The position numbers and the translations under genes are program-made. A stretch of DNA of 21,631 bases from a virus. Each line of letters begins with the position of its first letter. Position 1 is the first letter of the stretch. Shown piece after piece: positions 1 through 20,928 of this stretch. The notes under the pieces were generated by a model. It saw nothing but the letters and a program-made list of their open reading frames with translations, was not told the origin of the DNA and ran no database searches. The stretch lies in the IMG/VR virus record IMGVR_UViG_3300044634_004090, positions 1 through 21,631 of that record; one strand, 5' to 3'.

Positions 1-1041
1 GATGCAAACTTGAGTGTTTACTATTCACATCAATTTGTTGAAAATGAAACTCAAAGTGATGCAGGTGGAACAACCACAGCAGTAACAGTTGAACACACAC
101 CAGTTCTTGCTGGAACCATGACCGGTACAGTGTATGACGGTGCAACCGCTGTTCAAACATTCGTTGTTGCTCAAAGCGGTGCATTCACCTTCACAGATAT
201 CGGATCACCAAGTGCCAAGGTAACTGGTGGTACTCTCGATCTCACAACAGGCGAAGTTGAATTGACTTGGAATAGTGATCCAGGTGCAAACAGTGTTGTA
301 GTTTCATACGAATACAACATGGAATGCAACCAAGATCTTCCAGAAGTCAACCTCGTTGTTGAAAGTGAAGAAATTGCTGCAAAGACCAGAAAGCTCAAGG
401 CTGTTTGGAGTTATGAGGCTCAACAAGACCTCCGCTCACAACACAACCTCGACGCAGAGGCTGAGTTGACAGCAGTTTTAGCACAAGAAATCAACCTTGA
501 AATTGACCGTGAAGTTCTAAGCGATCTCCGCAATAATGCCGGAACAGTCGCAAGTTGGGACTTCAACACTGCCCTTGGTGACACCATCAAGGAAAAATAT
601 GAGTCACTTTATGTCAAAGTTGTTGAAGTTAGCAACGTTGTTCATCGTAAGACTCTTCGCGGTGGTTGCAACTGGATCGTCACAAGCCCAGAAGTTGCTT
701 CAATATTCGAAACAGCAACCGCAGGCTTTGCACCAGCACCAAGCGAAACATTTACAAGCAGCCTAGGCATTCAATATGTCGGCACTGTAAACAATCGTTG
801 GAGACTATATAAGGATCCATTGTTCCCATCAGGACAACTCCTCATGGGTTATAAGGGTGATTCATATATGGACAGTGGATATTTCTATTGCCCATATGTA
901 CCACTCACACAAACACCAGTGGTTCTTGATCCAGACTCCTTCTGCCCACGCAAGGGAATCTTAACAAGATATGGAAAGAAGTTGCTTAGAGAGGGAGCAA
1001 AGTTTTATGCTCGCCTCAGCATAGCTAATTTTGTGATTTAG
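1..1041 (+). CDS. 23: Major capsid protein, T4 gp23-like (5' end missing)
   Basis: This is the main shell protein of the phage head. The frame is open from base 1 (it begins Asp-Ala-Asn before a TTG), so the true start lies left of the window and 346 residues are visible. The visible part starts with a threonine/glycine-rich beta-sandwich segment (about residues 20-105), as in far-T4 capsid proteins. A helical segment follows with the pattern KLKAVWSYEAQQDL and EINLEIDREVL, then the core motif NWIVTSPEVASIFETATAGF and a C-terminal block with YCPYVPLTQTPVVLDPDSF and TRYGKKL. The C-terminal block matches the T4 gp23 region ending in the TRYG motif. Codons use more C and G at third positions (CTC, ACC, GAC) than neighbouring genes, as expected for a very highly expressed gene. 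A terminator follows at once. Any prohead-protease cleavage site would be in the missing N-terminus. Confidence 0.9.
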   Translation, partial: DANLSVYYSHQFVENETQSDAGGTTTAVTVEHTPVLAGTMTGTVYDGATAVQTFVVAQSGAFTFTDIGSPSAKVTGGTLDLTTGEVELTWNSDPGANSVVVSYEYNMECNQDLPEVNLVVESEEIAAKTRKLKAVWSYEAQQDLRSQHNLDAEAELTAVLAQEINLEIDREVLSDLRNNAGTVASWDFNTALGDTIKEKYESLYVKVVEVSNVVHRKTLRGGCNWIVTSPEVASIFETATAGFAPAPSETFTSSLGIQYVGTVNNRWRLYKDPLFPSGQLLMGYKGDSYMDSGYFYCPYVPLTQTPVVLDPDSFCPRKGILTRYGKKLLREGAKFYARLSIANFVI

Positions 1042-4317: not shown

Positions 4318-4929
4318 TCAGTTTTTGTTTCCGTATCTGATGATATAATTCAAAACTGCAAATGGTTGCATATTATTGTGAGCAGTGCCGCCACCGGAAC
4401 TATCGATACTCAAAGCAGCAGGAGATGTAAACAAATTTGGCTCTCCAGGAGATGAATCTAAGCCAGAACCTGCGGTGTTTGATCCGTCAGAGGTCATTAA
4501 ACCAAGGGTACTTCCTACAGCGTTAGATGTGTGGGAATGGCTTGGCATTTCACCTGTTGTGAGGGTGTGAGTTTCGGCTCCACCTGTTGCTCCCATAGAT
4601 CTAGAAGTTAAACCTGATCCGGTTCCTTGACCAACAACAACTCTGCCCGCTAAGTTAGGCAAATTGAATGTTGTGGTTCCATTTCCTGCTCCGTATGTTG
4701 TGCCGATAATAGCGAACAAATCGGGATAATCACCTCTATAAACTTCTTGGCCAAGACAATTTAGCCATCCTTCTGGGGCTGTGCTTGAACCGTAAGCAAC
4801 CACTGCTCCAACTGGAACGAGTAACATTGGTGGCATAATATTTTCTTCTCTAACAACTGAATTTTTTATTCTATTTCTGATTTCTTCGACTGAACCTGGA
4901 CCTGTACCTTCTGTTGTTGTTGCTGGCAT
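4318..4929 (-). CDS. Tail-collar domain fibre protein
   Basis: A 203-residue structural protein of the phage tail-collar family (Pfam Tail_collar), found in fibre tips and in microcystin-dependent-protein-like adhesins. The signature runs from PVGAVVAYGSSTAPEGWLNC through YPDLFAIIGTTYGAGNGTTT to FNLPNLAGRVVVG (about residues 38-97). A glycine/serine loop region with GEMPSHSH follows, and the end, NMQPFAVLNYIIRYG, is typical of the family. The start is fixed by AAGGAGG a few bases before the ATG. It is transcribed from a late promoter at 4981-4988 and ends at the terminator at 4269-4302. The N-terminal 35 residues probably attach it to the virion. Host receptor binding is the likely role. Confidence 0.85.
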   Translation of the reverse strand: MPATTTEGTGPGSVEEIRNRIKNSVVREENIMPPMLLVPVGAVVAYGSSTAPEGWLNCLGQEVYRGDYPDLFAIIGTTYGAGNGTTTFNLPNLAGRVVVGQGTGSGLTSRSMGATGGAETHTLTTGEMPSHSHTSNAVGSTLGLMTSDGSNTAGSGLDSSPGEPNLFTSPAALSIDSSGGGTAHNNMQPFAVLNYIIRYGNKN

Positions 4930-4996: not shown

Positions 4997-5482
4997 TTAT
5001 AATTTGTTAATATTTATTACTACATCTTTATTCCATATGCATCCGCTTGCAACGTCCCAACCGTAATACCACATTAATTTCATTCTTAGTCCCCAAGAAT
5101 AAGGACAGATTTCTAATCCAGAATAATCTTCAGAAACTTTTTTCCAATTTATCATTACATATTCATGCTTTGTATCAGATCCATATTTTTTTGAAAAATC
5201 TAATATCTTTTCATTATTATCCAGTACCAGTATGTCGCTAAAATCTATATCTAATACGAACTTATGTTTTATACCTTCTAGTCTAAAATTTTCACCTTCG
5301 CACCATTCTACCCAATCAAATCCACAAGCGTACCATAATCCTTTTGGCTTCATATCTATTTTTTGTTCATTGCTGGCAACACTGTAGATTTTCAGCTCAG
5401 ACTTATCAGTTGTATGGAGTCTTTGATTGGCCGATAGTTTAATTTTATGGCAATCATTTTCTATAAAATTTTTAAATCTCAT
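4997..5482 (-). CDS. Conserved phage protein of unknown function
   Basis: A 161-residue protein with many aromatic residues. Visible blocks are KPKGLWYACGFDWVEWC (about 46-62), VLDIDFSDILVLDN, EYVMINWKKVSEDYSGLEICPYSWGLR, and a C-terminal WYYGWDVASGCIW. The layout suggests a compact globular domain. I recognise the general pattern from hypothetical phage proteins but no function. It starts three bases after the stop of the lectin-like fibre gene, without its own ribosome site, so it is coupled to that gene and read from the 6418-6425 late promoter. A fibre-associated, assembly or modification role is possible. Confidence 0.65.
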   Translation of the reverse strand: MRFKNFIENDCHKIKLSANQRLHTTDKSELKIYSVASNEQKIDMKPKGLWYACGFDWVEWCEGENFRLEGIKHKFVLDIDFSDILVLDNNEKILDFSKKYGSDTKHEYVMINWKKVSEDYSGLEICPYSWGLRMKLMWYYGWDVASGCIWNKDVVININKL

Positions 5483-5485
5483 AAT

Positions 5486-5740
5486 TCATTGAAAAGTTGG
5501 GTGTCCTGCTGTATTCGGTGGAACAGATGGTGTTTCTGGGGCATCGGTAACGGTGTCTCCGTCTTTAACTTTCATTACTTTTCTGTTGCCGCAGCCATCC
5601 AAGTAATCAAAATATCCAGTTCTCTGAACTGATCTTCTGGTTCCGTCTTCATTAACAATTACTGCGGTATCTAGATTTCCTTCTCCATAATAACGATAAT
5701 TAGGAATTGTTTCTGGATGGTCTGGGCTGAAGTCGTATGT
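5486..5740 (-). repeat. DNA encoding the shared C-terminal fibre module
   Basis: This segment is closely repeated at 6430-6687. A 24-base stretch is identical at 5488-5511 and 6432-6455, with many shorter identical runs. A more diverged copy encodes the end of the propeller fibre at 9900-10139, and a fourth, protein-level copy is the gene at 19994-20308. Such blocks are natural sites for homologous recombination between fibre genes. Confidence 0.85.
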
Positions 5741-6400
5741 GTACTCTTGAGCAATTCCCGTTGCTTCCTGCCCGTTTTTTAATATTTGTATATTTGTAAA
5801 ATATGCCTTTTTATCCATGTTATCTTGGTCGGCAGAAAAGCCTATTTTATAATTTCCTTCGGGAAGTTTTTCAGAGACATTAAGCGTGTTCACAACGGTG
5901 CCTTCGATATTTTCTCCTTGATAAACTATAACCTCCAAAGATTCTTCAGAAGGATTATATGTAAAATGAAAAGTATAATAGTTTTCTACATATTCGTCCC
6001 CTTCTCCACCTTCTAATTCTCCGCCTTCTCCATCTGTTTCGTTTGTTCTTCCATAAATATATGGAGTGGGACAATTCATAGAAAATGCTATTCTTGTTTC
6101 GTTAGATCCCCATTGCCATTCTGGCTCTGTGCCTGTGTTGAATATGCAGATGCCTTGATCTGAGCAGCCATCTTGGTAATCAACTGTGTATATGACTTCG
6201 CAAATATCATTAGTTTCAAACTCTGTTACAGATCTTATTGGATAACCCCCACCTTCCCCTTCTCCTCCGCTGCCGCCACCTGCGTCTCCTGAAAACCACA
6301 TCCCCTTATTATCAAATCCAAAATCTATATTTTCTACCTTGCCGGTTTCGCTTTCGTGTGAGGATAGCCAACATGGTTTAGAAGTTAAGTTACTAGACAT
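5486..6400 (-). CDS. Fibre/adhesin: lectin-like domain plus AGHPTF module
   Basis: A 304-residue structural protein. Residues 1-215 resemble an L-type-lectin-like (concanavalin-type) sandwich: WQWGSNETRIAFSM, then YYTFHFTYNPSEESLEVIVYQG and GNYKIGFSADQDNMDKKAYFTNI. Glycine/glutamate-rich loops (GGSGGEGEGGG, EGGELEGGEGDEY) interrupt it. Residues 221-304 are the shared C-terminal module: D-F-S-P, YYGEGNLDTA, RRSVQRTGYFDY, CGNRKVMKV, DGDTVTD, PAxTAGHPTFQ-type end. AAAGGAG and a late promoter lie just upstream. Carbohydrate binding at the virion surface is likely. The lectin assignment is by pattern only. Confidence 0.7.
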   Translation of the reverse strand: MSSNLTSKPCWLSSHESETGKVENIDFGFDNKGMWFSGDAGGGSGGEGEGGGYPIRSVTEFETNDICEVIYTVDYQDGCSDQGICIFNTGTEPEWQWGSNETRIAFSMNCPTPYIYGRTNETDGEGGELEGGEGDEYVENYYTFHFTYNPSEESLEVIVYQGENIEGTVVNTLNVSEKLPEGNYKIGFSADQDNMDKKAYFTNIQILKNGQEATGIAQEYTYDFSPDHPETIPNYRYYGEGNLDTAVIVNEDGTRRSVQRTGYFDYLDGCGNRKVMKVKDGDTVTDAPETPSVPPNTAGHPTFQ

Positions 6401-6417
6401 AAAATCTCCTTTAATGT

Positions 6418-6425
6418 TATTTATA
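6418..6425 (-). promoter_or_regulatory. T4-type late promoter TATAAATA (8/8)
   Basis: The exact late box lies 18 bases before the ATG at 6400, with AAAGGAG between. The box sits directly after the stop codon of the next fibre gene upstream (6430). Confidence 0.85.
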
Positions 6426-6429
6426 TTAT

Positions 6430-8043
6430 TTATTGAAAAGTTGGGTGTCCTGCTGGATTTGGCGGTACAGATGGCGTTTCTGGCACATCTGTAACTGAGT
6501 CCCCGTCATTAACTCTCATTACCTTTCTGTTGCCGCAATTATCAACATAATCAAAATATCCAGTTCTTTGAATTGATCTTCTAGATCCGTCTTCATTAGT
6601 TATAATTGCAGTATCCATATTACCTTCACCGTAATATTTATAATTTGGTATAGATTCATAATCATCTGGACTTAAATCATAATTATATGTAGTAGGTGAG
6701 CATCCTTCAAAATCTCCATAATCAACATCATTCCAATAAACCAAACTGTCATTTAAGTCTTCAACCTCTACCCATGATAATTCTCCTGGGCCTTCTCCGC
6801 CAACAAGAAATGTGGAGCACATAAAAACTTCTTCATCGTCATTGCCAGCAAAAAATTTACCATCTCCATAACCAAGTGCATCTATATAAGTTCCATGACT
6901 TAAAGTTGCAGTTGCACTACTATTAACATAAGATCCGGTCCAAATAGAGGCATCAATTGAAGAATTTAGTTCTTTAGTTTCATGAAGTTCGTATACTCCG
7001 CTACCCATATCCTTTATGAAATAAACTCCATTCAAGTCTGTAAGTCCCGAAGAGTTTGAAACTGTTATTTTTTCATTATTATTGGGTTCTTCATTACTTG
7101 TAAAAGTAATTTGTAAAGGATTTAAATTTTCTATAGTAGCTATTGAAGTAGTATAAGGTTTTGGAACGCTAACAAAAGGCCCAGCAGGAGCGTGAGGCCA
7201 CCAAATAATTTGACCATTGTTTGTGCTAACCATCCAAACTACAAATGAGTTTCCTTCATAACTTATAGTTCCAATTGTAGCTTCTGATATTGTTAGATTC
7301 TGCAATCCTACATTGTCAAAAAGAACTTCGCCTAAATCCCATCCCGGTATGAAATTCCAAGGTTGAGAAGGATCTTGATCAAATGTTGACCACCAAGTTT
7401 TACTATCATCGGCAAATGCATTCCAAGATCCGAAACTTTCTCCTCCTTCAGGATACGGAGTATACAAAAGTTGCCTAGCGTCTGTTGGAAAGTTTTCTGG
7501 CGTTACATAATTGCCTTCATTTAACTCTTGCGTCAAATCTGTTGTGTAGAAGCCCCCAGCCTTGTCATTCTCTCCGCCTTCGCCTTCTAGTATTCCAACT
7601 ATAAAATATCCAGTTTCATTGTAACCAACATCTGTAAATTCTAAATCATTTCCAGCTCCTATCTCGGAAATATAATCTGGATCTACGTCGCCTATTATCC
7701 AATTTTCCCCATCTTCGCTGTATGCAAATGCCGGATTTTTTGGGGATGATGGAGATGATGTTGTATGACCCACCGCTATAAATTTATTTCCCAAATAACG
7801 TACTTCATTGAAAAGATAGCCCTCTGTTCCTGTTGCTTGCATTGGCGTTGAATTCCAAGAAGAGGCATAAAATAGACCATAAGAATCCCCAACTTCTCCT
7901 TCTGTTCCCGTATAGACTATTATATTTGGGCCTATTGCAACTTTTCCTATATTAATTCCTGTGTCGAATGGAGCGGACCATTCCAATCCGTCAGTAGAAC
8001 TTATGACATTACCGTCAACATTTGCTACAATATACAAGCCCAT
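6430..8043 (-). CDS. Fibre/adhesin: Asp-box-like propeller plus AGHPTF module
   Basis: A 537-residue structural protein. The start is the ATG at 8043 (MGLYIVANVDGN), preceded by TAGGAGG; a longer frame to 8169 has no ribosome site and would run into the divergent gene. Residues 1 to about 250 show repeated beta-blade units with Asp-box-like turns (STDGLEW, YSEDGENW, FTDVGYN, GGFYTTD), as in sialidase-type propellers. The middle, to about 440, continues with further beta repeats. Residues 453-537 are the shared module: YYGEGNMDTA, RRSIQRTGYFDY, CGNRKVM, DGDSVTD, PAGHPTFQ. It is probably an exposed adhesin that binds a surface glycan. Confidence 0.72.
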   Translation of the reverse strand: MGLYIVANVDGNVISSTDGLEWSAPFDTGINIGKVAIGPNIIVYTGTEGEVGDSYGLFYASSWNSTPMQATGTEGYLFNEVRYLGNKFIAVGHTTSSPSSPKNPAFAYSEDGENWIIGDVDPDYISEIGAGNDLEFTDVGYNETGYFIVGILEGEGGENDKAGGFYTTDLTQELNEGNYVTPENFPTDARQLLYTPYPEGGESFGSWNAFADDSKTWWSTFDQDPSQPWNFIPGWDLGEVLFDNVGLQNLTISEATIGTISYEGNSFVVWMVSTNNGQIIWWPHAPAGPFVSVPKPYTTSIATIENLNPLQITFTSNEEPNNNEKITVSNSSGLTDLNGVYFIKDMGSGVYELHETKELNSSIDASIWTGSYVNSSATATLSHGTYIDALGYGDGKFFAGNDDEEVFMCSTFLVGGEGPGELSWVEVEDLNDSLVYWNDVDYGDFEGCSPTTYNYDLSPDDYESIPNYKYYGEGNMDTAIITNEDGSRRSIQRTGYFDYVDNCGNRKVMRVNDGDSVTDVPETPSVPPNPAGHPTFQ

Positions 8044-8054
8044 TTTGCCTCCTA

Positions 8055-8062
8055 GATAAATA
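8055..8062 (+). promoter_or_regulatory. Probable late promoter (7/8) for the 8075 gene
   Basis: GATAAATA lies 12 bases before the ATG at 8075. It is interleaved with an opposing box at 8066-8073. Confidence 0.5.
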
Positions 8063-8065
8063 CAT

Positions 8066-8073
8066 AATTTATA
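8066..8073 (-). promoter_or_regulatory. Probable late promoter (7/8) for the 8043 fibre gene
   Basis: TATAAATT on the minus strand lies 22 bases before the fibre ATG at 8043, with TAGGAGG between. Confidence 0.6.
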
Positions 8074-8074
8074 T

Positions 8075-8518
8075 ATGAACAAATCAATAGAAGATACAAA
8101 ACATTGGCAAAATTTAAAGCCTCCATTATGTCCAAATGAATATGAAATTGAGTTGTATAGGCACCACATAAGAGGCTATAAGCCCGTTTGTTTATTAGGC
8201 ATGACAAAACAACTAATAGAACTGTGCGATTTTATGATTGATTTAAACCCCATAAACCAAGAAAAGCCAGTAATAAAGTCGGATTGGTACAATATTAATG
8301 AAAAATCTGAAGTGGTGTTGGGTGACGGAGTATTAAATTTGTGCGATATTTCTTTAGTGGATAATTTATTAAAAATAACAAATAAATTAATTTGTAGAAT
8401 TTTTCTTAAGAAATTAGAAGGCATGAAATATGCAACTTATTTTCCAAATGAATTTCCCAAATCTAAAATTATAATACCCACTCAAGAAAATGTAGTTATG
8501 GTCATTTGGGAAAACTAA
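8075..8518 (+). CDS. Short class I SAM methyltransferase-like protein
   Basis: A 147-residue protein matching the plan of small class I methyltransferases. An N-terminal W-x2-LKPPLCP element (11-20) is followed by motif I-like VCLLGMTK (38-45), where the usual glycine loop is shortened. An acidic turn comes at SDW (69-71), then VVLGDGVLNL (80-89), the acceptor-side motif of the group. It is shorter than usual (families are commonly 200 or more residues), so catalysis is uncertain. It is the only + gene in this fibre block. It has no ribosome site before its ATG and overlaps the opposing methyltransferase at its stop by 4 bases. The substrate is unknown. Confidence 0.55.
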   Translation: MNKSIEDTKHWQNLKPPLCPNEYEIELYRHHIRGYKPVCLLGMTKQLIELCDFMIDLNPINQEKPVIKSDWYNINEKSEVVLGDGVLNLCDISLVDNLLKITNKLICRIFLKKLEGMKYATYFPNEFPKSKIIIPTQENVVMVIWEN

Positions 8519-9222
8519 TTTAGAATAAGATCAATGTATGTTAAACTCCATTCTAAATAGATTTTATTATGCTTTTTTTCAAAGCCTATATAATTTTCAA
8601 GCTCGTCTAATATTTCTTTATCCGTGACATTTCTTAAATCAAATAGAAGCCTGCAATATTCCGACATTTCCTGTTCGGAGTTAAAAATCCATGGGCAATT
8701 TCTCGTCTCAATTTCTATTACATTTAAATCTTTAGGAAAAACTACTTTTTTCCAATCATAATACGTCCCCTTATGCGTTCCAGTTGATGTTTTAGAACCA
8801 ACGAATTCATCTAAAAATTTAGATATTGGGCTATCAACAGACACATCAGCCAAGTGTATAATTCCAGATGGTTTCAGGTGTTTTTTCATATTATTTAGAA
8901 ACAATTCGAAATGTTCAATGTGATGAATAGAAGCCAAGCAAACTATTCTGTCTACTGTTTCTATTGGCCATTCTTCATAAGGCGAAACTACGTTTATTCC
9001 ATTAATTGATTTAGAGAAATCTAAGAAAACAATATCATTGCTATCTAAACAATACTTTTTTAAGTATCCTCCCAAAGCAGGAATATCTAATATTTTTTCA
9101 TTTTCCTTTAGTGGCAATTTATGAAATATTTGTTTAAATTCCAAATCTCTGGCATCTGGGTATTTTTTCATAGCCAAGTCATAAGATTCCCCTCTGTGCC
9201 TGAAAACTTCTTCATATTTCAT
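8515..9222 (-). CDS. Class I SAM-dependent methyltransferase
   Basis: A 235-residue protein. Motif I is ILDIPALGGYL (44-54), the second-strand acid is D68 in IVFLDFS, motif IV is DRIVCLASIHHI (91-102), and post-motif KPSGIIHLADV (117-127) completes the Rossmann core. The C-terminal part is unassigned. The family methylates small molecules, sugars or proteins; the substrate is not readable here. The start overlaps the stop of the QueC-like gene (ATGA at 9219-9222), with AAAGGAA upstream, so the pair is one operon under the 9800-9807 late promoter. This suggests linked chemistry. Confidence 0.75.
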   Translation of the reverse strand: MKYEEVFRHRGESYDLAMKKYPDARDLEFKQIFHKLPLKENEKILDIPALGGYLKKYCLDSNDIVFLDFSKSINGINVVSPYEEWPIETVDRIVCLASIHHIEHFELFLNNMKKHLKPSGIIHLADVSVDSPISKFLDEFVGSKTSTGTHKGTYYDWKKVVFPKDLNVIEIETRNCPWIFNSEQEMSEYCRLLFDLRNVTDKEILDELENYIGFEKKHNKIYLEWSLTYIDLILN

Positions 9223-9794
9223 TTTTCACATTCCTTTATTTTGTTCATTTCCATGCAAGTTTTACATCTATTACATGCTCTAATTTCTTGATCATAAATT
9301 GGTCTTCTGCAACTCCAAGTGATATTTCTTAAATCTTCTGGGAGCATTTGATAGATTTCTTCTTTCGTCATGTCTCCAACTGGGTATATTTTTTTAATAT
9401 TTGAATTAAATGCGTTTAATATTTTTGTTCCTCTTTCGGCACGAAGATCTATACCAGTATCAGATTTGGTTCTTCCTATAGCCACTTCTTTTATACTTTT
9501 GATACTAAGGCACATAGTTCCTGCTATAAAGTTATACATGTCGCTATCCCACATGAAATTTCCATTATAAGAAGGATATTCATGATAACTTTCGCTATAT
9601 GAAAAATCTCCAATTTTTTTCATATAATCTAAAATGTCTTTTACAGCCCTGTCTTCTGCTAGTGCTCTGTTCTCTTTATTGACTAAATAAAGATGATGAA
9701 CATGAATTTTTTCTTTTTCTTGCAGTAATTTCCAGAATGCTCCTGTTGAGTCTAATCCTCCAGAGAACATTAATAAAATATTTGGTTTTTCCAT
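9219..9794 (-). CDS. QueC-like PP-loop ATPase with four-Cys zinc site
   Basis: A 191-residue protein starting at the ATG at 9794. A longer reading to 9860 would run through a terminator and promoter and is not credible. The N-type PP-loop SGGLDS is at 11-16. The C-terminal zinc site is C162 (in TWSC) plus C174, C177 and C180 (ACNRCKTC), as in 7-cyano-7-deazaguanine synthase QueC. QueC converts carboxy-deazaguanine to preQ0, used for queuosine or for DNA deazaguanine modification in some phages. It is slightly shorter than typical QueC, and no QueD, QueE, FolE or DpdA partner is in the window, so another adenylating role is possible. It forms an operon with the methyltransferase. Confidence 0.68.
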   Translation of the reverse strand: MEKPNILLMFSGGLDSTGAFWKLLQEKEKIHVHHLYLVNKENRALAEDRAVKDILDYMKKIGDFSYSESYHEYPSYNGNFMWDSDMYNFIAGTMCLSIKSIKEVAIGRTKSDTGIDLRAERGTKILNAFNSNIKKIYPVGDMTKEEIYQMLPEDLRNITWSCRRPIYDQEIRACNRCKTCMEMNKIKECEK

Positions 9795-9799
9795 AATTA

Positions 9800-9807
9800 T
9801 ATTTATA
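9800..9807 (-). promoter_or_regulatory. T4-type late promoter TATAAATA (8/8)
   Basis: The exact late box is only five bases before the ATG at 9794. In T4 such a box starts transcription about six bases downstream, so the mRNA would begin at or next to the start codon. Confidence 0.7.
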
Positions 9808-9810
9808 TTA

Positions 9811-9847
9811 AAAAAATAAAAAAAGCAGCCGTCCGAAGATGGCTGCT
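9811..9847 (-). terminator. Rho-independent terminator after the propeller fibre
   Basis: A 10-bp stem (9838-9847 with 9824-9833) has a four-base loop (TTCG on the minus strand). A long T-rich run follows on the minus strand (9824 down to 9811). Confidence 0.9.
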
Positions 9848-9899
9848 CTCTATTCAACACATTCAGTTCTTCCTTGAACTTTTTGCTTCCTTGCTTATA

Positions 9900-12038
9900 T
9901 CAAGTAAAAAATGGATGTCCTGCTGGATTAACGTGTACTTCTGGAGTTTCTGTCTCATCAGTTACCGTTTCTCCGTCATTAACCATTACTACTTTTCTTC
10001 CCCCATCAGCGTTAACTAATTCAAAATAACCTGTTCTTTGAATTGATCTTCTCACTCCATTTTCTACAACCATTGCAGTATCAAGACCACCTTCTCCGTA
10101 AATATTAACATTTTGTGGAGAAAAGTCATAGTTATAAGTTTGAATTGAAGACAATCCTCCAATTACATCCAAGAATTTCAAGGCCACGGCCTCTGCATCT
10201 TCATTGGAAAGATATTGACCATAATCTCTAGCAATTACTAAAAATGCAATAGATCTTTTTCCTGACAATCCTTGGACACAATGATCATCATAATCATCTC
10301 CATCTTCGTTAATCAATTGTATAACGCCAGATGCGTCTCCTGGGACAATGATCAAGTGGTTGACCGAAGGATCACTACTCGATTCTCCACCATCGCCCTC
10401 TCTATTAACTTTGAGGAAAATAGTGTATGTAGCTCCTTGATGTGTCACGATAACAGAAGATTCATTTTGCGTACTATTATCTGAACCCAGACCGCCAGTA
10501 ACAGAAAACTCTTCTATATCCACATTAGTAGCTACCATCACGAACATTCCAGGATAAAGATTAGTGAAATAATTACTCCCTTCTCCGAAATAATCATCGC
10601 CAGAAACTACCTGTCCATTCATTAATGGTTCATAAATAGGATCTTCATTTTCATCTTCTTTGAAGTTGTTATTATTTGAACAAGCAGAATGGGTATAAGG
10701 AATACAAAGCCCTCTATTTGCACTATTGTTTTGAACATCCTCCCAAGACTGAGTTAGGTTGGTGTTCAAAAAATTTCCTCCGTCATACATGTCATCACCG
10801 CCATCATTGATTCCGAATGCTGTATACCTGAATAACATAGCACTGGTATCCATCTCTCCTGTTGAACTTAACTTGGCAAAACCAAACGCCGCTTTTGCTC
10901 CGAATGCGGTAAACCCTCCAGTACAAAGTACATCTCCACTAGAAGACAACAATATGTGTTGAACTCTAGGGTCTTCCCAATCATTTGTATTATCTCCAAT
11001 TCCAGCCCCAACGTCAAAAGATGTGTCTTTAGTTCCATCTGCGTTGAACCTTACGATTCCATTACATAATTCACCATTAAGTTGGCTGAACCAGCCGCCA
11101 ACAACAACTTTATTATTGCTTTGAACAGCAACTGCTTGAACCTTGTCATCAAGACCACTGCCTTCTGTGGTGAATGTCGAGTCTAAACTTCCATCGCTGT
11201 TTAGACGTACAATCCCAGGGTTGCAGGGAGAAGCATTAAGTTCATTGAACCAGCCACCTACTAATAACTTGCCATTAGAGTCTTTTTTAATTGATACAAC
11301 TCTGTTGTTAAACACAGCAGAAAAACTACTATCTGTAGTGCCGTCGCCATTCAATCTAGCAATATAGTTCGAGAATTCGCCACCAATATAAATCTTGCCA
11401 TCAGAATCAACAAAAATTTCATGAACTTGACTACTGGCAGCATCTACATTACTTGTGAAGGTTGCGTCTAAAACACCATCTGCACTTAATTTTACAAGTG
11501 CATCAACAGAGTTTCCGTTGTAATCACCAAAATCTCCACCTACTAAAATACTATCGTCTGAAAGAACTCTTACAACCAAAGCGTTGCCATTAAATCCAGA
11601 TTGTCCAGCATTAAATGTTGTATCAACCGATCCATCTGTATTAAGTCTAGCTATTTTTCCGTAAGATGTTCCTCCAATACTGGAGAAGTGACCAACAATG
11701 ATTAATTTTCCGCTCGATTGAGCCGCAACTGATCTGACAAACCCTCCGCTCCCAGTGTTAAAATTTGGACATGTGAATGTTTCGTCTAATGTAAAATCAC
11801 TGTTGTATCTGCGAACATTTTTCCCAAAATTGTCGCCGCCATCAATGCCAACCCAAATGTATTTTCCATTAGATAATGGATAAAATTGACTTCCGAGTGG
11901 ATCATAGTCCAAATTATCTCCGTACTCGTTCTTAGCATACGAAAAGTCATCTGTGAAAACTCTTAGATCTGGAACGAGGTTCGTGATTTCTTCATAATTA
12001 GAATTTAAATTAGATAAAATATCATTGATATCAGCCAT
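9900..12038 (-). CDS. Fibre/adhesin: seven delta-60 propeller repeats plus AGHP module
   Basis: A 712-residue structural protein. Seven delta-60-type repeats (pattern RLNxDGxxDxxF followed by a GKxxVGGxF strand) run from about residue 77 to 400: RYNSDFTLDETF, RLNTDGSVDTTF, KLSADGVLDATF, RLNGDGTTDSSF, RLNSDGSLDSTF, RFNADGTKDTSF and KLSSTGEMDTS. This fits a seven-bladed propeller. Residues 400-630 form an unassigned domain with an acidic loop (EDGDDYDDHC). Residues 634-712 are the shared module (IYGEGGLDTA, RRSIQRTGYFEL, DGETVTD, NPAGHPFFT). AAGGAGG precedes the ATG. A late-type box is weak here (TATAAAAT at 12072-12065), and a strong terminator follows. An exposed binding protein is likely. 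Confidence 0.78.
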   Translation of the reverse strand: MADINDILSNLNSNYEEITNLVPDLRVFTDDFSYAKNEYGDNLDYDPLGSQFYPLSNGKYIWVGIDGGDNFGKNVRRYNSDFTLDETFTCPNFNTGSGGFVRSVAAQSSGKLIIVGHFSSIGGTSYGKIARLNTDGSVDTTFNAGQSGFNGNALVVRVLSDDSILVGGDFGDYNGNSVDALVKLSADGVLDATFTSNVDAASSQVHEIFVDSDGKIYIGGEFSNYIARLNGDGTTDSSFSAVFNNRVVSIKKDSNGKLLVGGWFNELNASPCNPGIVRLNSDGSLDSTFTTEGSGLDDKVQAVAVQSNNKVVVGGWFSQLNGELCNGIVRFNADGTKDTSFDVGAGIGDNTNDWEDPRVQHILLSSSGDVLCTGGFTAFGAKAAFGFAKLSSTGEMDTSAMLFRYTAFGINDGGDDMYDGGNFLNTNLTQSWEDVQNNSANRGLCIPYTHSACSNNNNFKEDENEDPIYEPLMNGQVVSGDDYFGEGSNYFTNLYPGMFVMVATNVDIEEFSVTGGLGSDNSTQNESSVIVTHQGATYTIFLKVNREGDGGESSSDPSVNHLIIVPGDASGVIQLINEDGDDYDDHCVQGLSGKRSIAFLVIARDYGQYLSNEDAEAVALKFLDVIGGLSSIQTYNYDFSPQNVNIYGEGGLDTAMVVENGVRRSIQRTGYFELVNADGGRKVVMVNDGETVTDETETPEVHVNPAGHPFFT

Positions 12039-14736: not shown

Positions 14737-15435
14737 CTATAAACCAAATCTAGATTTTGTAGCATTATAATTAATTGCCACCTCATCATCAGATAATTGT
14801 TTATTATAAACTCTGACAACAGCTATATCTCCATTATAATAATATCCTCTGCTGCCATTGTATCCTCCATAAACTCCCATGCTCATGCCTCCATTATTTG
14901 TTGCAATAGTTCCTGTTTGACTGTCACTATTTTTAGAAATTCCATTAACGTATAATTTTCTATTTCCGGAAGAATATGTGCCAACTATTTGAAACCAACT
15001 AGACGTGTTGACCCCAGCATTAACAGTGTTCGTACTAAAGGTGTTCAGTGTCCCGTTTAAAACCATTCTCCATTGAATATTTGTTCCTTCTTGGAATAAA
15101 CTATATTGTGAATTGACAACTCCTTTCTCAAACCAAAAACCACTTTGAGTCGTGGCATTTGTTTTTATCCAAACTTCTACGCTAGGAGTTTGCGTATCGA
15201 GTAGCGTACTATTCGGTATCCTGATCAATCTATTATTGGTAGTTCCATTAAAACTAAAGTATTTATTACTAGTAGAACTTGAATAAGGAGGAGAATTTAT
15301 TAATTCTCCAACAAAATCATTGCCACTTAAGTCAGTGCAACTTGTTCCGCTGCCGCTGTAGCATTTGTTGTTGGCAAAATCCATATTGAATACTAAATTA
15401 TTAGTAATTATTTTCGGCCCATTAGAATAGCTCAT
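14737..15435 (-). CDS. LamG/concanavalin-type fibre protein B
   Basis: A 232-residue single-domain structural protein of the laminin-G_3 type: NLVFNMDFANNKCYSGSGTSCTDLSGN at the start, then SVEVWIKTNATTQSGFWFEK, WFQIVGTYSSGNRKLYVNG, and the family end VVRVYNKQLSDDEVAINYNATKSRFGL. These domains bind carbohydrates or act as fibre tips. It is a paralogue of the protein at 16891-17571, sharing the opening, the Asp-Leu-Ser/Ile-x-N element and the YNA-x-K-x-RFGL end. Its ATG overlaps the stop of the 50-residue gene (ATGA). Confidence 0.8.
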   Translation of the reverse strand: MSYSNGPKIITNNLVFNMDFANNKCYSGSGTSCTDLSGNDFVGELINSPPYSSSTSNKYFSFNGTTNNRLIRIPNSTLLDTQTPSVEVWIKTNATTQSGFWFEKGVVNSQYSLFQEGTNIQWRMVLNGTLNTFSTNTVNAGVNTSSWFQIVGTYSSGNRKLYVNGISKNSDSQTGTIATNNGGMSMGVYGGYNGSRGYYYNGDIAVVRVYNKQLSDDEVAINYNATKSRFGL

Positions 15436-15584
15436 TCAACGCATCCTACCTTTATTATTTCTATCACAGTATAATTAGCATTAAAAAAATCTAATGCTTG
15501 CTCTTCAGTATTAATCTGAATATGATAATTAATATAGACCTCCTCTGGATCTAATATTTTAGCATCTATGATAAAAGTTTTCAT
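15432..15584 (-). CDS. 50-residue protein embedded in the fibre operon
   Basis: A small protein beginning MKTFIIDAKILDPEEVYIN and ending IEIIKVGCVE, with a central helix EEQALDFFNANY. It overlaps both neighbours by ATGA, so it is translated in the same chain of coupled genes. The beta-helix-beta pattern suggests a tiny alpha/beta fold. It may be an assembly chaperone or a fibre accessory; this is inferred from position only. Confidence 0.65.
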   Translation of the reverse strand: MKTFIIDAKILDPEEVYINYHIQINTEEQALDFFNANYTVIEIIKVGCVE

Positions 15585-16891
15585 AATGTTGATATCCTTG
15601 CTAGGTGGGATGTGTTTGCTGCTGTTGGGAATATTATAATTTTTTTATAATTATTAGGACCGCCAATGCTCATTGTTCTAGCGTCCGCGTATCCTACCGT
15701 GGATCGAGATCCAGAACTAACGCCATTTCTATAAGTGTACCAAGTGCCGTAGCTGTGAGTCATGGCAACTTTATTTTCTCCTAATCTACTAAAACCACCA
15801 TAATCATATCTGACATAGGATGGGCTGTATTTATCTGCTAGAATGTTTGCAGTATTTCTTAGATGTCTAATGCTGAAGCCTCCATCAAAAACATTAGCGG
15901 TTGTATAAAATGAAAAGCCTAAAGCCCCTCCTGTTATAACATCACAAAAATTATAAGGGCTATAGAATTGACACAATGCGGTGAATTCGTTAGTGGAATA
16001 AGATCCTAGCCATGATGATTTAGTAGACAAACTACAGCTATCAGCAGTGACGCTTCCTACCGAACCTGTTGTCTTAATGTACTGAGCAAACGCAACTTCA
16101 TATCCACTTGTTTGATTGAACGTCGTGTTGAGCATTGCTCCAAAAATTAAGCAGCCGTCCCCATTATTGCCAGTTAATGAAGAAGATGACGTGGTAGGAT
16201 TAAATGATATAGTGTAATTGATTCCAGGCGAGGCTGCTTGAACATCTTGGACAAGAAACATTAATCTGTACCATCCATTGCCCATATTGCAAACATACTT
16301 ATTAACAAACACTAATTGATTGGCTGTTCCCGCTGTATTGGTGCCGGTTGTTCCATTAGATAAATTGTAATAACATTCTGTTGTATATGTTCCGTTTGAT
16401 ACATGAATTCTTAAATAATTGCATTCGGCTGCTTTTGCCATAATGCTGACATATAAAAATCTTTTACTAGATCCTGACGCTCCAATTAAACTAATATTAT
16501 AAGATAAAGATCCTCCGGAACTTGTTAGTTCTAGTCTTGAGCCGTTGTCTGATCCGTTTGGAGACAATGTTGATGTAGATTCGATTTGAGAGTTAGTTTT
16601 TGTCCAAATGTTTTGAGTAAAATCCTCACTATAAATAAAATTATTGTTTGATGAATTAGGATCTATATACAATCCCCGATACTGCAAAGTTCCATTGCTA
16701 TCATATTCGTAATTAAATCTTGCAACATTAGCAGAAGCAGTTTTTATATAGCCATCACTGCCAATGTATGTCCCAGAAGTTGATCTACTAAATGCAAATG
16801 GACCACCTATGCCATCAGATGGATTTAATTCTTGCCAAGTTTCAAAATCTCTGTAAAAAGTATTTTTTATATTTCCATATTGAGTAGCCAT
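15581..16891 (-). CDS. Large tail/fibre structural protein
   Basis: A 436-residue beta-rich protein. The start (residues about 30-85) has the widespread phage fibre motif FxFSRSTSGTYIGSDGYIKTASANVARFNYEYDSNG followed by LYIDPNSSNNFIYSED-like and W, found before carbohydrate-binding jelly rolls in many tail proteins. Residues 85-265 fit a CBM-like sandwich (RFLYVSIMAKAAECNYLRIHV, WYRLMFLVQDV). The end resembles a second LamG-like lobe (WYTYRNGVSSGSRSTVGYADARTMSIGG). Serine, threonine, glycine and asparagine dominate. Its ATG shares one base with the previous stop (TAATG). Receptor binding is likely. No AGHPTF module is present. Confidence 0.72.
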   Translation of the reverse strand: MATQYGNIKNTFYRDFETWQELNPSDGIGGPFAFSRSTSGTYIGSDGYIKTASANVARFNYEYDSNGTLQYRGLYIDPNSSNNNFIYSEDFTQNIWTKTNSQIESTSTLSPNGSDNGSRLELTSSGGSLSYNISLIGASGSSKRFLYVSIMAKAAECNYLRIHVSNGTYTTECYYNLSNGTTGTNTAGTANQLVFVNKYVCNMGNGWYRLMFLVQDVQAASPGINYTISFNPTTSSSSLTGNNGDGCLIFGAMLNTTFNQTSGYEVAFAQYIKTTGSVGSVTADSCSLSTKSSWLGSYSTNEFTALCQFYSPYNFCDVITGGALGFSFYTTANVFDGGFSIRHLRNTANILADKYSPSYVRYDYGGFSRLGENKVAMTHSYGTWYTYRNGVSSGSRSTVGYADARTMSIGGPNNYKKIIIFPTAANTSHLARISTL

Positions 16892-17571
16892 TATAAACCA
16901 AACCTTCCTTTTATAGCATTATAATTTTGTAAAATTTCTGAAGAAGAAAGTGCTTTGCTATAAAGCAAATGAGAGTACAGAGTAATATTATTCCATCTGG
17001 AACCTCCTTCACTAGCGAGATTAATTGTTACAGATGAAGGGGTGTCTGATCTGCTGATGGCTGTGCTAGAGTTTACAATCATAGAATTGTTAACATAAAA
17101 TTGATGACTATTTACGCCATTAGTAATAAAAGAATACATAGTAGGCAAGGTCACATCAGAAATCGTCGCAAATCCCAAATAAGTATATGATGCTGATACA
17201 TTGCCATTCATAATGTAAGCATCAACATTTTTTGTGCTCTGATTATTATGAATGATAAATCCATTCTGAAATCTGCAAGACCCCAAACCAGCAGTATTGC
17301 TCCACGTGCTAGTTGATGATTTTGCCCATGTTATTACAGTTAGTGCTTTATTTAAAACTGAGGAGTACGAACAGCCATCATTAATTCCATCAAATAATAT
17401 TCCTCCTTTATTGTCTGCACTAAAACTTGGCCCATTAGACAAAGTGGCATTATTATTATTAATTAAATCAGACCATGTATTCCCACTACCAGCATAACTT
17501 TTACTATTAGCAGCATCTAGATGAAGAGTTAATCCTTCTGTAACTATGTCCGGACCACCGTATATTGCCAT
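16891..17571 (-). CDS. LamG/concanavalin-type fibre protein A
   Basis: A 226-residue laminin-G_3-type protein and first gene of the fibre operon: GLTLHLDAANSKSYAGSGNTWSDLINNNNATL, GGILFDGINDGCSY, LTVITWAKSS, HQFYVNNSMI, and the end LYSKALSSSEILQNYNAIKGRFGL. It is paralogous to the 14737-15435 protein. No Shine-Dalgarno stands before the ATG. Upstream there are only weak candidates: TATACT at 17592-17587 and a CTAAATAA-like late box just before the ATG. Confidence 0.8.
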   Translation of the reverse strand: MAIYGGPDIVTEGLTLHLDAANSKSYAGSGNTWSDLINNNNATLSNGPSFSADNKGGILFDGINDGCSYSSVLNKALTVITWAKSSTSTWSNTAGLGSCRFQNGFIIHNNQSTKNVDAYIMNGNVSASYTYLGFATISDVTLPTMYSFITNGVNSHQFYVNNSMIVNSSTAISRSDTPSSVTINLASEGGSRWNNITLYSHLLYSKALSSSEILQNYNAIKGRFGL

Positions 17572-17620
17572 ATTTTTATTTAGCTAAGTATACACTATAT
17601 TAGTAAAAAAAAGGAATAAA

Positions 17621-17740
17621 ATGAATGGAAAAGGAAGCAAAAGAAGACCAAAAAGTGTTGATCAAAAAACTTGGGATAAAAATTGGGAAAAAATATTTGG
17701 TAAAAACAAAAAAAAAAAATTAATAATTAGTAATAATTAA
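17621..17740 (+). CDS. Small conserved phage protein, GKGSKRRP type
   Basis: A 39-residue very basic protein, MNGKGSKRRPKSVDQKTWDK then NWEKIFGK and a lysine run. The GKGSKRRP...NW(D/E)xIFGK pattern is a small protein I have seen repeatedly in aquatic T4-like phages; its function is unknown. AAGGA stands five bases before the ATG. Its last 21 bases overlap the 3' end of the adenine methylase on the opposite strand, within an A-rich tract. Confidence 0.7.
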   Translation: MNGKGSKRRPKSVDQKTWDKNWEKIFGKNKKKKLIISNN

Positions 17741-18562
17741 TTCTTTGCCTATTTTTTTTGTTTTGCTATGCGTTTTTGCGCTTGAAGTTCCACAATAAGT
17801 CCACTTTAATTTATAAATATTAAAATCTTTATACAATTTTCTAATAAAAGAATTATCATCATACGATATGACAACTTTATGTTTAGAATTTTTTATATTA
17901 TCGCACAACTTAATGTGATCTTCTTTCTCAAAATTATACTTGTATAATCTGGAATTTTTTTCCAAATCTGTATTTACGCAATACGGAGGATCAACATAAA
18001 CAACAACATTTTCTCCGTCTTCAAATAATAAATTTTCATAAGAAGAGCAAGAAATTCTGGTTTCTTTAATTATTTCCGCTGCTTTTTCTATTTTTTTAGT
18101 ATGAACTAATTTCCATCCCTGTGGATTTGAAAAATACAACCTAGACTTAATATCATAATTAACTCTACCGCCCCAAACTGTTCTATTGACGAATAAGTAA
18201 CTCAAAGCAGGGTCAGAATTTCTATTATTTATCAAATTATCAAATTCTGATTTTAATCTAGAATTATACTTTGCCTTGCCGCCAGATTTAGATTCGCACA
18301 AGCCATCTGTTTTTTTGGGCGGATCTATAGATCTACATTTTTTTATAAAATTATTTGCATCGTTCTTAAGCGCAAAATAAACACTCATTAAATTTTCATC
18401 TATATCATTTATCCATCTTTTTTTATTAGTTGGAACATGAAAGAATATTCCTCCTCCTCCGACCATAACATCTCTGTACTCGGAGTATTCCTTGGGAAAT
18501 CTCATCATTATTTGTTCTCTGATGGATTTTTTACTTTTGCCACCCGGATATCTAAAAATCAT
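17720..18562 (-). CDS. dam: DNA adenine N6-methyltransferase (Dam/D12 class)
   Basis: A 280-residue enzyme that transfers methyl from SAM to adenine N6 in DNA. Motif I is RYPGGKSK (4-11), the second SAM-site element is INDIDENLMSVY (51-62), and the catalytic motif IV is DPPY at 191-194. WGGRVNY and the target-recognition region between about 80 and 170 complete the D12-class layout. The length matches T4 Dam and relatives. The likely site is GATC, but specificity cannot be read directly. It is driven by a near-consensus promoter at 18570-18598 with its ATG seven bases after the -10, so it is probably early. Protection from host restriction or marking of phage DNA are the usual roles. Confidence 0.85.
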   Translation of the reverse strand: MIFRYPGGKSKKSIREQIMMRFPKEYSEYRDVMVGGGGIFFHVPTNKKRWINDIDENLMSVYFALKNDANNFIKKCRSIDPPKKTDGLCESKSGGKAKYNSRLKSEFDNLINNRNSDPALSYLFVNRTVWGGRVNYDIKSRLYFSNPQGWKLVHTKKIEKAAEIIKETRISCSSYENLLFEDGENVVVYVDPPYCVNTDLEKNSRLYKYNFEKEDHIKLCDNIKNSKHKVVISYDDNSFIRKLYKDFNIYKLKWTYCGTSSAKTHSKTKKIGKELIITNY

Positions 18563-18569
18563 ATTTTTT

Positions 18570-18598
18570 ATTATATCAGATACGCTAGATTATTTCAA
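18570..18598 (-). promoter_or_regulatory. Sigma70-type promoter, TTGAAA-17-TATAAT
   Basis: On the minus strand, TTGAAA (18598-18593), a 17-base spacer and TATAAT (18575-18570) precede the Dam ATG by seven bases. No ribosome site fits in that gap, so the message is probably leaderless. Confidence 0.75.
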
Positions 18599-18608
18599 TT
18601 GTTTTTAC

Positions 18609-18614
18609 TATAAT
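18609..18614 (+). promoter_or_regulatory. -10 box TATAAT before the 18621 operon
   Basis: A perfect -10 hexamer ends six bases before the ATG at 18621. The -35 region (TAGATT at 18586-18591) is poor. It faces away from the Dam promoter in a shared 58-base gap. Confidence 0.45.
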
Positions 18615-18620
18615 TAAAGC

Positions 18621-18770
18621 ATGAAGAAGATAGAAGAGATACTAGAAAAAAAATACACTGAGGATCAGTATAAAGAGATATTAAGTAAAAACGTAATGGA
18701 CTTAATAAAAGAAGCTTTTATAGCGGGATACCAGGAGTGCTTAAGAGATAGAGAAAAAATATTAGGATAA
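18621..18770 (+). CDS. Small helical protein, unknown function
   Basis: A 49-residue charged protein: MKKIEEILEKKYTEDQYKEI, then VMDLIKEAFIAGYQECLRDR. It is probably two helices; the 'EAFxAGYxE' pattern occurs in many small phage proteins of unknown role. There is no ribosome site, only a TATAAT six bases from the ATG. It is followed after four bases by the 18775 gene and is first in the operon. Confidence 0.55.
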   Translation: MKKIEEILEKKYTEDQYKEILSKNVMDLIKEAFIAGYQECLRDREKILG

Positions 18771-18774
18771 ATAA

Positions 18775-19176
18775 ATGAAAATAAATAATTTAGAAGTTTT
18801 AAACTTATACATGGGACTTAACATTATTGCCAAAGAAAAATTGCCAATAATGTTGTCATTTCAAATAGAATCAATCAGAAACTATCTTGAATCTTTTGCT
18901 AAAACTGTTGATAGGATGATATTAGAAATAAAAAAAAGACATGCAGCAATCGACCCAATAACAAAAGAATTTGTTTTGGCAAAATCTGAATCAGGACAAG
19001 TGATGCCTGATACTCTGGTTTTAGAAAGTCCAGAAAAAGCAAACGAAGAGATAGAAGAATTCTTAAAACAAGAATTAGAAGTTCCTGACGTTGATCTGAG
19101 GTTGTCTTATTTTCCAAGTGACTTTAGAATTTCAGCAGATAATCTTAAATTAATTAGGAGAATAATAAAAATATGA
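18775..19176 (+). CDS. Phage helical protein, possibly DUF1617-like
   Basis: A 133-residue mostly helical acidic/basic protein: NLYMGLNIIAKEKLPIMLSFQIESIRNYLESFAKTVDRMI at the start, and a long loop to EIEEFLKQELEVPDVDLRLSYFP at the end. The layout (helix pair, then a short strand with V-D-L) resembles small phage proteins of the DUF1617 kind; this match is from memory and weak. Weak AGGA upstream. Its stop overlaps the next ATG (ATGA), so it is coupled. Confidence 0.5.
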   Translation: MKINNLEVLNLYMGLNIIAKEKLPIMLSFQIESIRNYLESFAKTVDRMILEIKKRHAAIDPITKEFVLAKSESGQVMPDTLVLESPEKANEEIEEFLKQELEVPDVDLRLSYFPSDFRISADNLKLIRRIIKI

Positions 19177-19556
19177 TTTCATTAAAAGATTATAAAAATT
19201 CAAATAATGTTAAAAATTTAATACAAAAAATGTTTGAATCAAGACAGGTTGCACACAACTGTCACCTACAAACAAAAAGTTATAGTCAGCACAAGGCTTT
19301 AAACGAATATTATGATGAAGTTCTAGATCTGATCGATACTTTTGTTGAATCTTATCAAGGTCAATATGGAATAATTTCTGGTTACGAGAAGATCGATGTT
19401 TCTCCAGTTCCAGATGTTGAAGTTTATTTTGAAGATTGTGCAAAAATATTTATATTGGGAAGAAATTCGTTGAAAGATTCTCATTTGCAAAATATTATGG
19501 ATGAAATTGTTACGCTAGCGTATAAGACAATTTATAAACTAAAAAATCTAAAATGA
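19173..19556 (+). CDS. DUF5856-like, ferritin/Dps-type helical protein
   Basis: A 127-residue helical protein. SRQVAHNCHLQTKSYSQHKALNEYYDEVLDLIDTFVESYQGQYG (about 23-66) carries the histidine/glutamate pattern (H28, H31, H40, E59, YQG) of DUF5856, a phage family that looks like a ferritin-type four-helix bundle. NIMDEIVTLAYKTIYKLKNL closes it, as usual. Metal binding is suggested by the histidines but is not proven. It sits between two coupled neighbours with ATGA overlaps at both ends. Confidence 0.75.
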   Translation: MISLKDYKNSNNVKNLIQKMFESRQVAHNCHLQTKSYSQHKALNEYYDEVLDLIDTFVESYQGQYGIISGYEKIDVSPVPDVEVYFEDCAKIFILGRNSLKDSHLQNIMDEIVTLAYKTIYKLKNLK

Positions 19557-19918: not shown

Positions 19919-19949
19919 TTTCACCAATATAAAAAAAATTTATTGTTAT

Positions 19950-19957
19950 TATAAATA
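19950..19957 (+). promoter_or_regulatory. T4-type late promoter TATAAATA (8/8)
   Basis: The exact late box on + lies 36 bases before the ATG at 19994, with AAGGAGG (19981-19987) between. Confidence 0.85.
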
Positions 19958-19993
19958 TATAATATTGTCCATTTATTTATAAGGAGGTAAAAA

Positions 19994-20308
19994 ATGGCAA
20001 GTTATACAGTTAATCTCACCCCAGATTTAGTCAATCCCACCACAGAGGCCAGCTTAGATACTACCGTTGTTAATGGTCTTTCTAAACAAAGAACATTTGA
20101 AATGACAATGGTTGAAAATCTTAGTGGCGGGTTAAAAATAGTCGGAAGAATTCCAGACGGCGGAACTTACAACGATGATACTACTTATGTAAACGAATAT
20201 GAAAATGAAGCAGGACATCCAACTTTTACAAGTGGAACTGCCGTTTCCAGACCTTCGGTCACAAGTGGTCATCCAACAGCAAGTTCATCTTCTGGAAGCA
20301 CATTCTGA
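19994..20308 (+). CDS. Stand-alone AGHPTF-module virion protein
   Basis: A 104-residue protein that is essentially the C-terminal module of the three adhesins with no head domain: SYTVNLTPDLVN, then ASLDTTVVNGLSKQRTFEM, a GGLKIVGRIPDGGTYNDDT strand pair and NEAGHPTF at 73-78. A second GHPT occurs at 92-95 in a serine-rich tail. It has the strongest late setting in the window: exact TATAAATA, AAGGAGG six bases before the ATG, and its own terminator. That points to abundant late synthesis and a virion component, for example a head or fibre decoration protein. No family name is known to me. Confidence 0.7.
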   Translation: MASYTVNLTPDLVNPTTEASLDTTVVNGLSKQRTFEMTMVENLSGGLKIVGRIPDGGTYNDDTTYVNEYENEAGHPTFTSGTAVSRPSVTSGHPTASSSSGSTF

Positions 20309-20360: not shown

Positions 20361-20525
20361 CTAACAACCGTCCTTCGGGACGGTTGTTTTATTTAATCTT
20401 TTTATTTCTTTTCTTAATTTTTTTATTTCATTAGCAGCTTCTTTTAATAGATCTGCTCTGTCTATTGCTCTTGCTTGCGTGACACTACTGATAAGTCTAT
20501 TAACTATGTCTTCTTGTTTTTGCAT
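20361..20525 (-). CDS. Small helical protein, RADLLxEAAxEI motif
   Basis: A 54-residue protein, MQKQEDIVNRLISSVTQARA then IDRADLLKEAANEIKKLRKE and a basic end. The 'D-x-LxEAAxEIxxLR' helix is common in small phage proteins of unknown function. It starts five bases after the stop of the 120-residue gene without a ribosome site, so it is coupled. Its last ten codons (NKTTVPKDGC) lie inside the + strand terminator hairpin, so the same DNA serves as codons on minus and terminator on +. Confidence 0.55.
   Translation of the reverse strand: MQKQEDIVNRLISSVTQARAIDRADLLKEAANEIKKLRKEIKRLNKTTVPKDGC
20364..20395 (+). terminator. Rho-independent terminator with UUCG loop
   Basis: A perfect 10-bp stem (20364-20373 with 20378-20387) closes the very stable TTCG tetraloop and is followed by TTTTATTT. 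It ends the late transcript of the 19994 gene. Confidence 0.9.
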
Positions 20526-20893: not shown

Positions 20894-20928
20894 ATATTCC
20901 TCTATATTTGTCAAATATATATATTAAC

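Follow-up and report, generated by a model that had tools for sequence, protein, structure and literature searches.

A module at the ends of three proteins and in one free-standing gene

The window analysed here, a 21.6-kb fragment (positions 1 to 21,631 of IMG/VR virus record IMGVR_UViG_3300044634_004090), comes from a T4-type phage and opens with the gene for the major capsid protein gp23. The nearest gp23 in the phage collection is 80% identical and belongs to LR756511.1, a 595-kb uncultured phage. We studied a protein module that occurs in four genes of the window. Three of them (P0001, P0002, and P0003) lie on the minus strand and carry the module as a C-terminal tail behind N-terminal domains that we call heads; the fourth (P0004) lies on the plus strand and encodes the module alone, a form that we call bare (Table 1). 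A first-pass annotation, made without database searches, had placed the module at these four sites, and it is present at each of them. The start of P0002 is most likely the ATG at 8043 behind AGGAGG and not position 8169.

The three tails align over 80-89 residues, with 75-79% identity between P0001 and P0002 and 60% between P0001 and P0003. The bare protein is more distant, at about 34-40% identity to the tails (34% to that of P0001). When it was compared with all six frames of the window, only the three tails were recovered (E = 5e-9, 3e-4, and 6e-4), and a hidden Markov model (HMM) of the three tails recovered the bare protein in turn (independent E-value 1.3e-5). The bare protein scored 22.3 bits; shuffling its residues 20,000 times gave at most 12.7. 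Given these shuffle scores and the E-value of 5e-9 within the record, chance does not explain the similarity of the bare protein to the tails, and the earlier report of a shared C-terminal module on three adhesins that also stands alone at 19994 is upheld by alignment, HMM, and shuffling alike.

Table 1. Positions of the module copies and of associated features in the window
Feature	Position	Strand	Basis
gp23, T4-type major capsid protein	10..1041	+	PF07068 E=2.5e-68; contig edge cuts the 5' end
P0001, 304 residues: N-terminal head of ~213 residues and C-terminal module	5489..6400	-	Open reading frame
Module copy 1, 88 residues, ending in NTAGHPTFQ	5489..5752	-	Sequence comparison
TATAAATA upstream of P0001	6418..6425	-	Motif search
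P0002, 537 residues: head of ~446 residues and C-terminal module	6433..8043	-	ATG behind AGGAGG
Module copy 2, 89 residues	6433..6699	-	79% identical to copy 1, unrelated head
P0003, 712 residues: DUF5122 (delta-60) beta-propeller head and C-terminal module	9903..12038	-	Open reading frame; PF17164
Module copy 3, 82 residues	9903..10148	-	Alignment; AlphaFold2 model
TATAAATA, late-promoter-like element of the bare gene	19950..19957	+	~36 nucleotides before the ATG
AGGAGGT, ribosome-binding site of the bare gene	19982..19988	+	Read from the sequence
P0004, bare module, 104 residues, with extra C-terminal SGHPTASSSSGSTF	19994..20305	+	Alignment; HMM
Terminator with 11-bp stem, 3' of the bare gene	20363..20388	+	Sequence

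Structure prediction with AlphaFold2 (AF2) gave the P0003 tail a mean predicted local distance difference test score (pLDDT) of 80.6, with strands at residues 3-5, 25-28, 31-34, 38-44, 50-56, and 60-62. The bare P0004 was modelled with a pLDDT of 67.8 and with strands in the same order, and the two models agree in topology when their DSSP strings are compared by eye. These monomer models of the 19994 protein and of one tail are in keeping with the first-pass view that both are the same module, which is predicted to be all-beta. The predicted template modelling (pTM) scores were low (0.58 for the P0003 tail and 0.42 for the bare protein), as would fit a domain that is complete only as an oligomer or on a partner.

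Extent of the family and variety of its heads

Relatives were gathered by five viral scans and by profile searches of whole records. These yielded 65 non-redundant modules (76 distinct module stretches) from roughly 50 IMG/VR contigs, the longest of which is 459 kb; carriers other than the window are denoted below by L numbers. The module spans about 75 residues, with invariant or nearly invariant E, L, D, T, S, Q, R, D, and G, and its core follows the pattern E[GAS]x[LM]DT...SxQR[T]...DG. The ending AGHPTF is limited to one clade, and most bare relatives lack AGHP(T/F)F altogether, so this motif is not the diagnostic part that it had been taken for.

With five module sequences as queries, tblastn returned nothing or noise (E >= 0.3) from 50,697 phage records, and a scan of GTDB (84,980 genomes of bacteria and archaea) returned no relative. 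None of 60 members had a significant match in Pfam (none better than 0.029) or in PHROGs, where the best, in 3 of the 60, was to a PHROG of unknown function (E=0.0058). The module matched no PDB chain by sequence or by fold, and Foldseek gave nothing significant against PDB or BFVD (best E 0.86 and 0.48, respectively, and none at E<=0.001 in BFVD). The remark in the first-pass annotation that no described family has this plan thus agrees with every library searched (Pfam, PHROGs, PDB, BFVD, phage records, and GTDB), and these comparisons show the module to be an undescribed, phage-only protein family of large T4-type phages. The PF07068 capsid family is present in 13 of 32 carrier contigs, and in L011, L018, L023, L024, and L031 putative gp21- and gp22-like genes, named by position and sequence, lie 5' of gp23. 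Judged by this gp23 capsid gene in the order gp21-gp22-gp23, the host of the module is a T4-type phage.

Most members are bare proteins of about 70-104 residues, which form tandem pairs in L005 and L150. A bare copy is present in 21 of the 22 contigs that reach 90 kb, a count biased by scans with bare profiles; 12 of the 22 have fused forms, nearly always alongside a bare copy. The suggestion that the bare form serves as a filler or competitor is better reversed; it is the commoner form, and the fusions look accessory. The idea of a protein end holds for the window, but in the relatives the module also stands at the N-terminus or internally.

The heads are diverse. That of P0003 matches PF17164 (DUF5122; E=1.3e-60, 201.8 bits against a Pfam gathering cut-off of 27), which bears out the proposed delta-60 propeller. 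The heads of P0001 and P0002, described at first as lectin-like and Asp-box-like, had no match in Pfam or in PDB sequence searches, and these labels remain guesses. The P0001 head is homologous to proteins of L007 and L009 and to the N-termini of those in L014 and L031, and the P0002 head is 85% identical to its counterpart in L008. The module is C-terminal on DUF5122 propellers in P0003, L014, and L044 and, by homology to P0003, in L007-L010, L020, L023, and L024; it is also C-terminal on RCC1 propellers in L030 and L111, where one protein of L111 adds an F5/8C domain. It is N-terminal before a domain of about 150 residues without assignment (L016, L018, L020-L024, and L030), before a DUF4350-like domain that scores under the Pfam cut-off (L142), and before Cys-rich or TPTP-rich ends (L040-L043). 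In L031 the module is internal, with a head of the P0001 type and a DUF5122 propeller before it and, after it, a linker (TPTATP) and a GLEYA domain. Both L014 and L031 join heads of the P0001 and P0003 types on a single module. The domain families of the heads suggest an adhesive role for them.

Two observations concern adhesin-like genes without the module. L042 has a propeller-type gene without it (7606-9936) and, about 60 bases downstream, a separate module gene (10001-10462) with Cys-rich and TPTP-rich ends, which amounts to a split version of a fusion. The window itself encodes three more adhesin-like proteins on the minus strand (14740-15435, 15584-16891, and 16894-17571), the first with a Laminin_G_3 match and the trio with PHROG matches to virion or tail structural proteins; as these three are without the module, not all adhesins of the window use it.

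A module that ends three proteins could be a folding, trimerisation, or solubility domain resembling an intramolecular chaperone, with no docking role. The Peptidase_S74 chaperone of tail spikes is likewise a conserved C-terminal domain common to unrelated fibres, and the only moderate AF2 monomer models would fit an oligomer. However, most contigs have the module as a free-standing protein, others have it at the N-terminus or internally, and it matches neither Peptidase_S74 nor any other chaperone in Pfam. The free-standing and N-terminal forms led us to reject a simple chaperone, which the first-pass annotation had listed as an option and which we regard as improbable.

The relation between heads and tails looks like one of exchange. 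Under unrelated heads, the tails of P0001 and P0002 keep 79% identity, a level matching that between orthologous tails: 78% for P0001 and its L007 orthologue, with heads at 87%, and 73% for P0002 and L008, with heads at 85%. On the tree of modules, one group unites the tails of P0001, P0002, L007 (with a P0001-type head), and L008 (with a P0002-type head) without regard to head type (support 89/87); the bare, N-terminal, and C-terminal forms require seven changes (bootstrap 6-8). Tree and alignments together show independent fusions of the module, with tails common to different heads. The simplest account of these patterns would be recombination or gene conversion inside the module.

Promoter-like elements and neighbouring genes

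Late promoters of T4 use TATAAATA, exact copies of which precede P0001 and the bare gene. The window holds 10 exact copies against 4.2 expected, and 1 of 100 shuffles reached as many; as this window-only excess is weak, the promoter argument rests on a count across contigs. HTATATA lies 22-52 nucleotides upstream of 23 of 51 module genes, compared to 48 of 724 other open reading frames (ORFs; Fisher p = 1e-12, a value that is too small, since related loci are not independent and the motif was picked after the upstream sequences had been viewed). In L018, L023, L024, and L042 the capsid operon (gp21-gp22-gp23) likewise has a TATATA element ahead of its first gene. Elements of the TATATA or TATAAATA type stand upstream of module genes and capsid genes alike; late expression of the module together with the capsid genes, as for phage decoration proteins in general, is conceivable.

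The bare gene has expression signals of its own, and the 11-bp stem of the terminator downstream suggests a one-gene transcript. Being headless and only about a third to two-fifths identical to the tails, P0004 might be taken for the decayed remnant of a headed protein. Its ribosome-binding site, promoter-like element, and terminator speak against this, as does the retention of the 104-residue form with a GHPTA...GST[FLI] end in L009, L011, L012, L014, and L015 and the wide occurrence of bare relatives. Because of this conservation and these gene signals we rejected decay, which is extremely unlikely.

Genes of the gp23 cluster occur in 14 loci that hold the module. Around them, 67 ORFs begin with a peptide of the MKTFxEWL or MKSFxEWL type, compared to 0.55 expected by shuffling, and these starts resemble those of T4 IPI (MKTFKEF) and IPIII (MKTYQEF). 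The start peptides of IPI and IPIII direct internal proteins into the T4 head, and the MKTFxEWL-type genes may, by this resemblance, encode internal head proteins of the carrier phages. Small genes of this type were seen in L011, L020, L024, L031, and L041-L043, among others, and the window has two minus-strand genes with starts that look capsid-targeting (MRFKNFI at 5000-5482 and MKFKEFL at 20534-20914).

Bare genes themselves often have other neighbours. In the window and in L011, L028, L034, L035, and L036 the bare gene lies 1-2 kb from a Dam-type gene, and another group of bare genes lies near UvsX (both labels being assigned from sequence). This proximity to UvsX, gp32-like, or Dam-type genes and not to structural genes would suit an intracellular or anti-host protein, with the fusions having borrowed the domain for an unrelated purpose. 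But T4 soc is not part of the head cluster either and lies about 1.5 kb from dam; moreover, bare and fused copies have the invariant core and the promoter-like element in common. Both points make such a role very unlikely.

A tail location deserves more weight. Under this alternative the module would dock at the sheath, tube, baseplate, or neck of the tail, the fusions would be whiskers or side adhesins, and the bare protein would cap empty sites. Tail-collar and fibre-like genes adjoin adhesin genes at 4321-4929 of the window and in L018, L020, L023, and L024, and adhesive heads are commonest on tails. The jumbo phage vB_PcaM_CBB is known to carry whiskers along its tail (PMC5259590). Against a tail dock stand the promoter-like element that is common to the capsid operon, the many putatively head-targeted genes nearby, and the position of the bare gene in many loci near UvsX or Dam genes instead of tail genes, as with soc and dam in T4. 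We consider a tail dock possible but clearly the less likely alternative.

The collar-like gene at 4321-4929 (minus strand) also bears TTTEGTGPGS, a second shared N-terminal peptide found on otherwise unrelated collar- and fibre-like proteins: L008 (5801), L024 (13083 and 14040), L028 (14938 and 15331), L033 (14924), L034 (14167 and 14551), L035 (14384 and 14768), and L044 (10994 and 18381). Possibly it is another common docking or assembly signal. Between the adhesin genes of the window (8075-9860) lies a block, conserved in L007, L008, L009, and L012-L014, that encodes a QueC-like ATPase (PF06508), an S-adenosylmethionine (SAM) methyltransferase, and an uncharacterised 147-residue protein. 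Directly after gp23 (1212-2659) come putative HNH- or homing-type endonuclease genes, as in several relatives; in T4, segD follows gene 23. Lastly, the 459-kb contig L010 has an abrupt GC shift from about 33% to 59% at 15883-20000, where 12 CTAGTTGGTATCA repeats are spaced 116-620 bp apart between short ORFs, several behind stem-loops; this region is either a cassette-like array or a chimeric join.

The module as a probable virion anchor

A domain that suffices alone, can sit at either end of a chain, and stays constant while the heads vary is best explained as a virion anchor. We consider it probable that the module is a beta-rich anchor, with the bare form as a decoration protein and the fusions displaying binding heads. 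The parts of this reading differ in strength. The display role is well supported, so the dock with interchangeable heads proposed at first finds good backing in the unrelated heads across genomes, the use of either end, the joined heads of L014 and L031, and the 79% identical tails under unrelated heads in the window. Anchoring is highly probable when head and tail sites are taken together. The phage head as the site has slightly better than even prospects; of the "capsid or tail decoration site" named in the first-pass annotation, the evidence for the capsid over the tail is circumstantial.

As we picture it, the bare protein, made from its own promoter-like element and terminated transcript, would decorate the virion, with the surface of the gp23 head as the likeliest place. 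Fused modules would attach propeller, lectin-like, discoidin, or GLEYA heads at those binding sites too and may thereby display interchangeable surface-binding adhesins, as with T4 Hoc, and heads would be swapped between copies through recombination within the module. More tentatively, and with somewhat less than even confidence, we propose a plug-in display in which one anchor of unmatched fold coats the virion bare and presents swappable heads at the same sites; with several heads per genome, exchanged within the anchor, each particle might carry a mixed adhesin coat.

Known decoration proteins offer parallels. The C-terminal domain of T4 Hoc sits on the capsid and leaves three immunoglobulin (Ig) domains exposed (PMC9958956), and decoration proteins of the Hoc kind aid attachment to cell surfaces (PMC7602432). 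The carrier phages are also T4-type with the gp21-gp22-gp23 order, and Hoc would resemble the module in plan, having an accessory anchor at one end and displayed domains at the other. It differs in its one fixed Ig set, whereas the module bears unrelated heads, at either terminus and in several copies per genome. T4 Soc, like the bare module, is a small free-standing protein encoded outside the head cluster near dam, but fusions of the module are natural and Soc display fusions have been described only as engineered (PMC7602432). T4 hoc lies about 4 kb downstream of gene 23. The likeness to soc and hoc in gene position is one of layout, not homology. Also, pb10 of T5 and other decoration proteins bind both the capsid and cell-surface carbohydrates (PMC7602432); the module differs from pb10 in matching nothing in PDB.

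Several points weigh against an anchor on the virion, and against the head in particular. Homology was rejected for both T4 counterparts (hhalign probability 0.5% for Hoc, and 1.7% over 8 columns for Soc), and with no fold match in PDB or BFVD the predicted structure adds no function. By profile search the module was absent from LR756511.1, from T4, and from nine further records of huge or T4-type phages (eleven in all), while the same profile was positive in 32 of 32 carrier contigs; as LR756511.1 and the ten other records do without it, the module is dispensable or replaceable. All carriers are metagenomic fragments, from which the virion location is inferred, and a tail site fits the tail-collar and fibre-like neighbours of the adhesins as well. 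The later scans ran bare-protein profiles, so ascertainment favours bare forms, and the module tree has only 80 columns and many poorly supported forks.

These results put a name to a protein family that had gone unannotated in large environmental phages; its sequence signature offers a means of locating surface adhesins in them. If the anchor is on the head, natural head-surface display would be modular and multi-headed, going further than T4 or T5 with their single Ig-type heads, and the module would be a natural, small, two-ended display scaffold.

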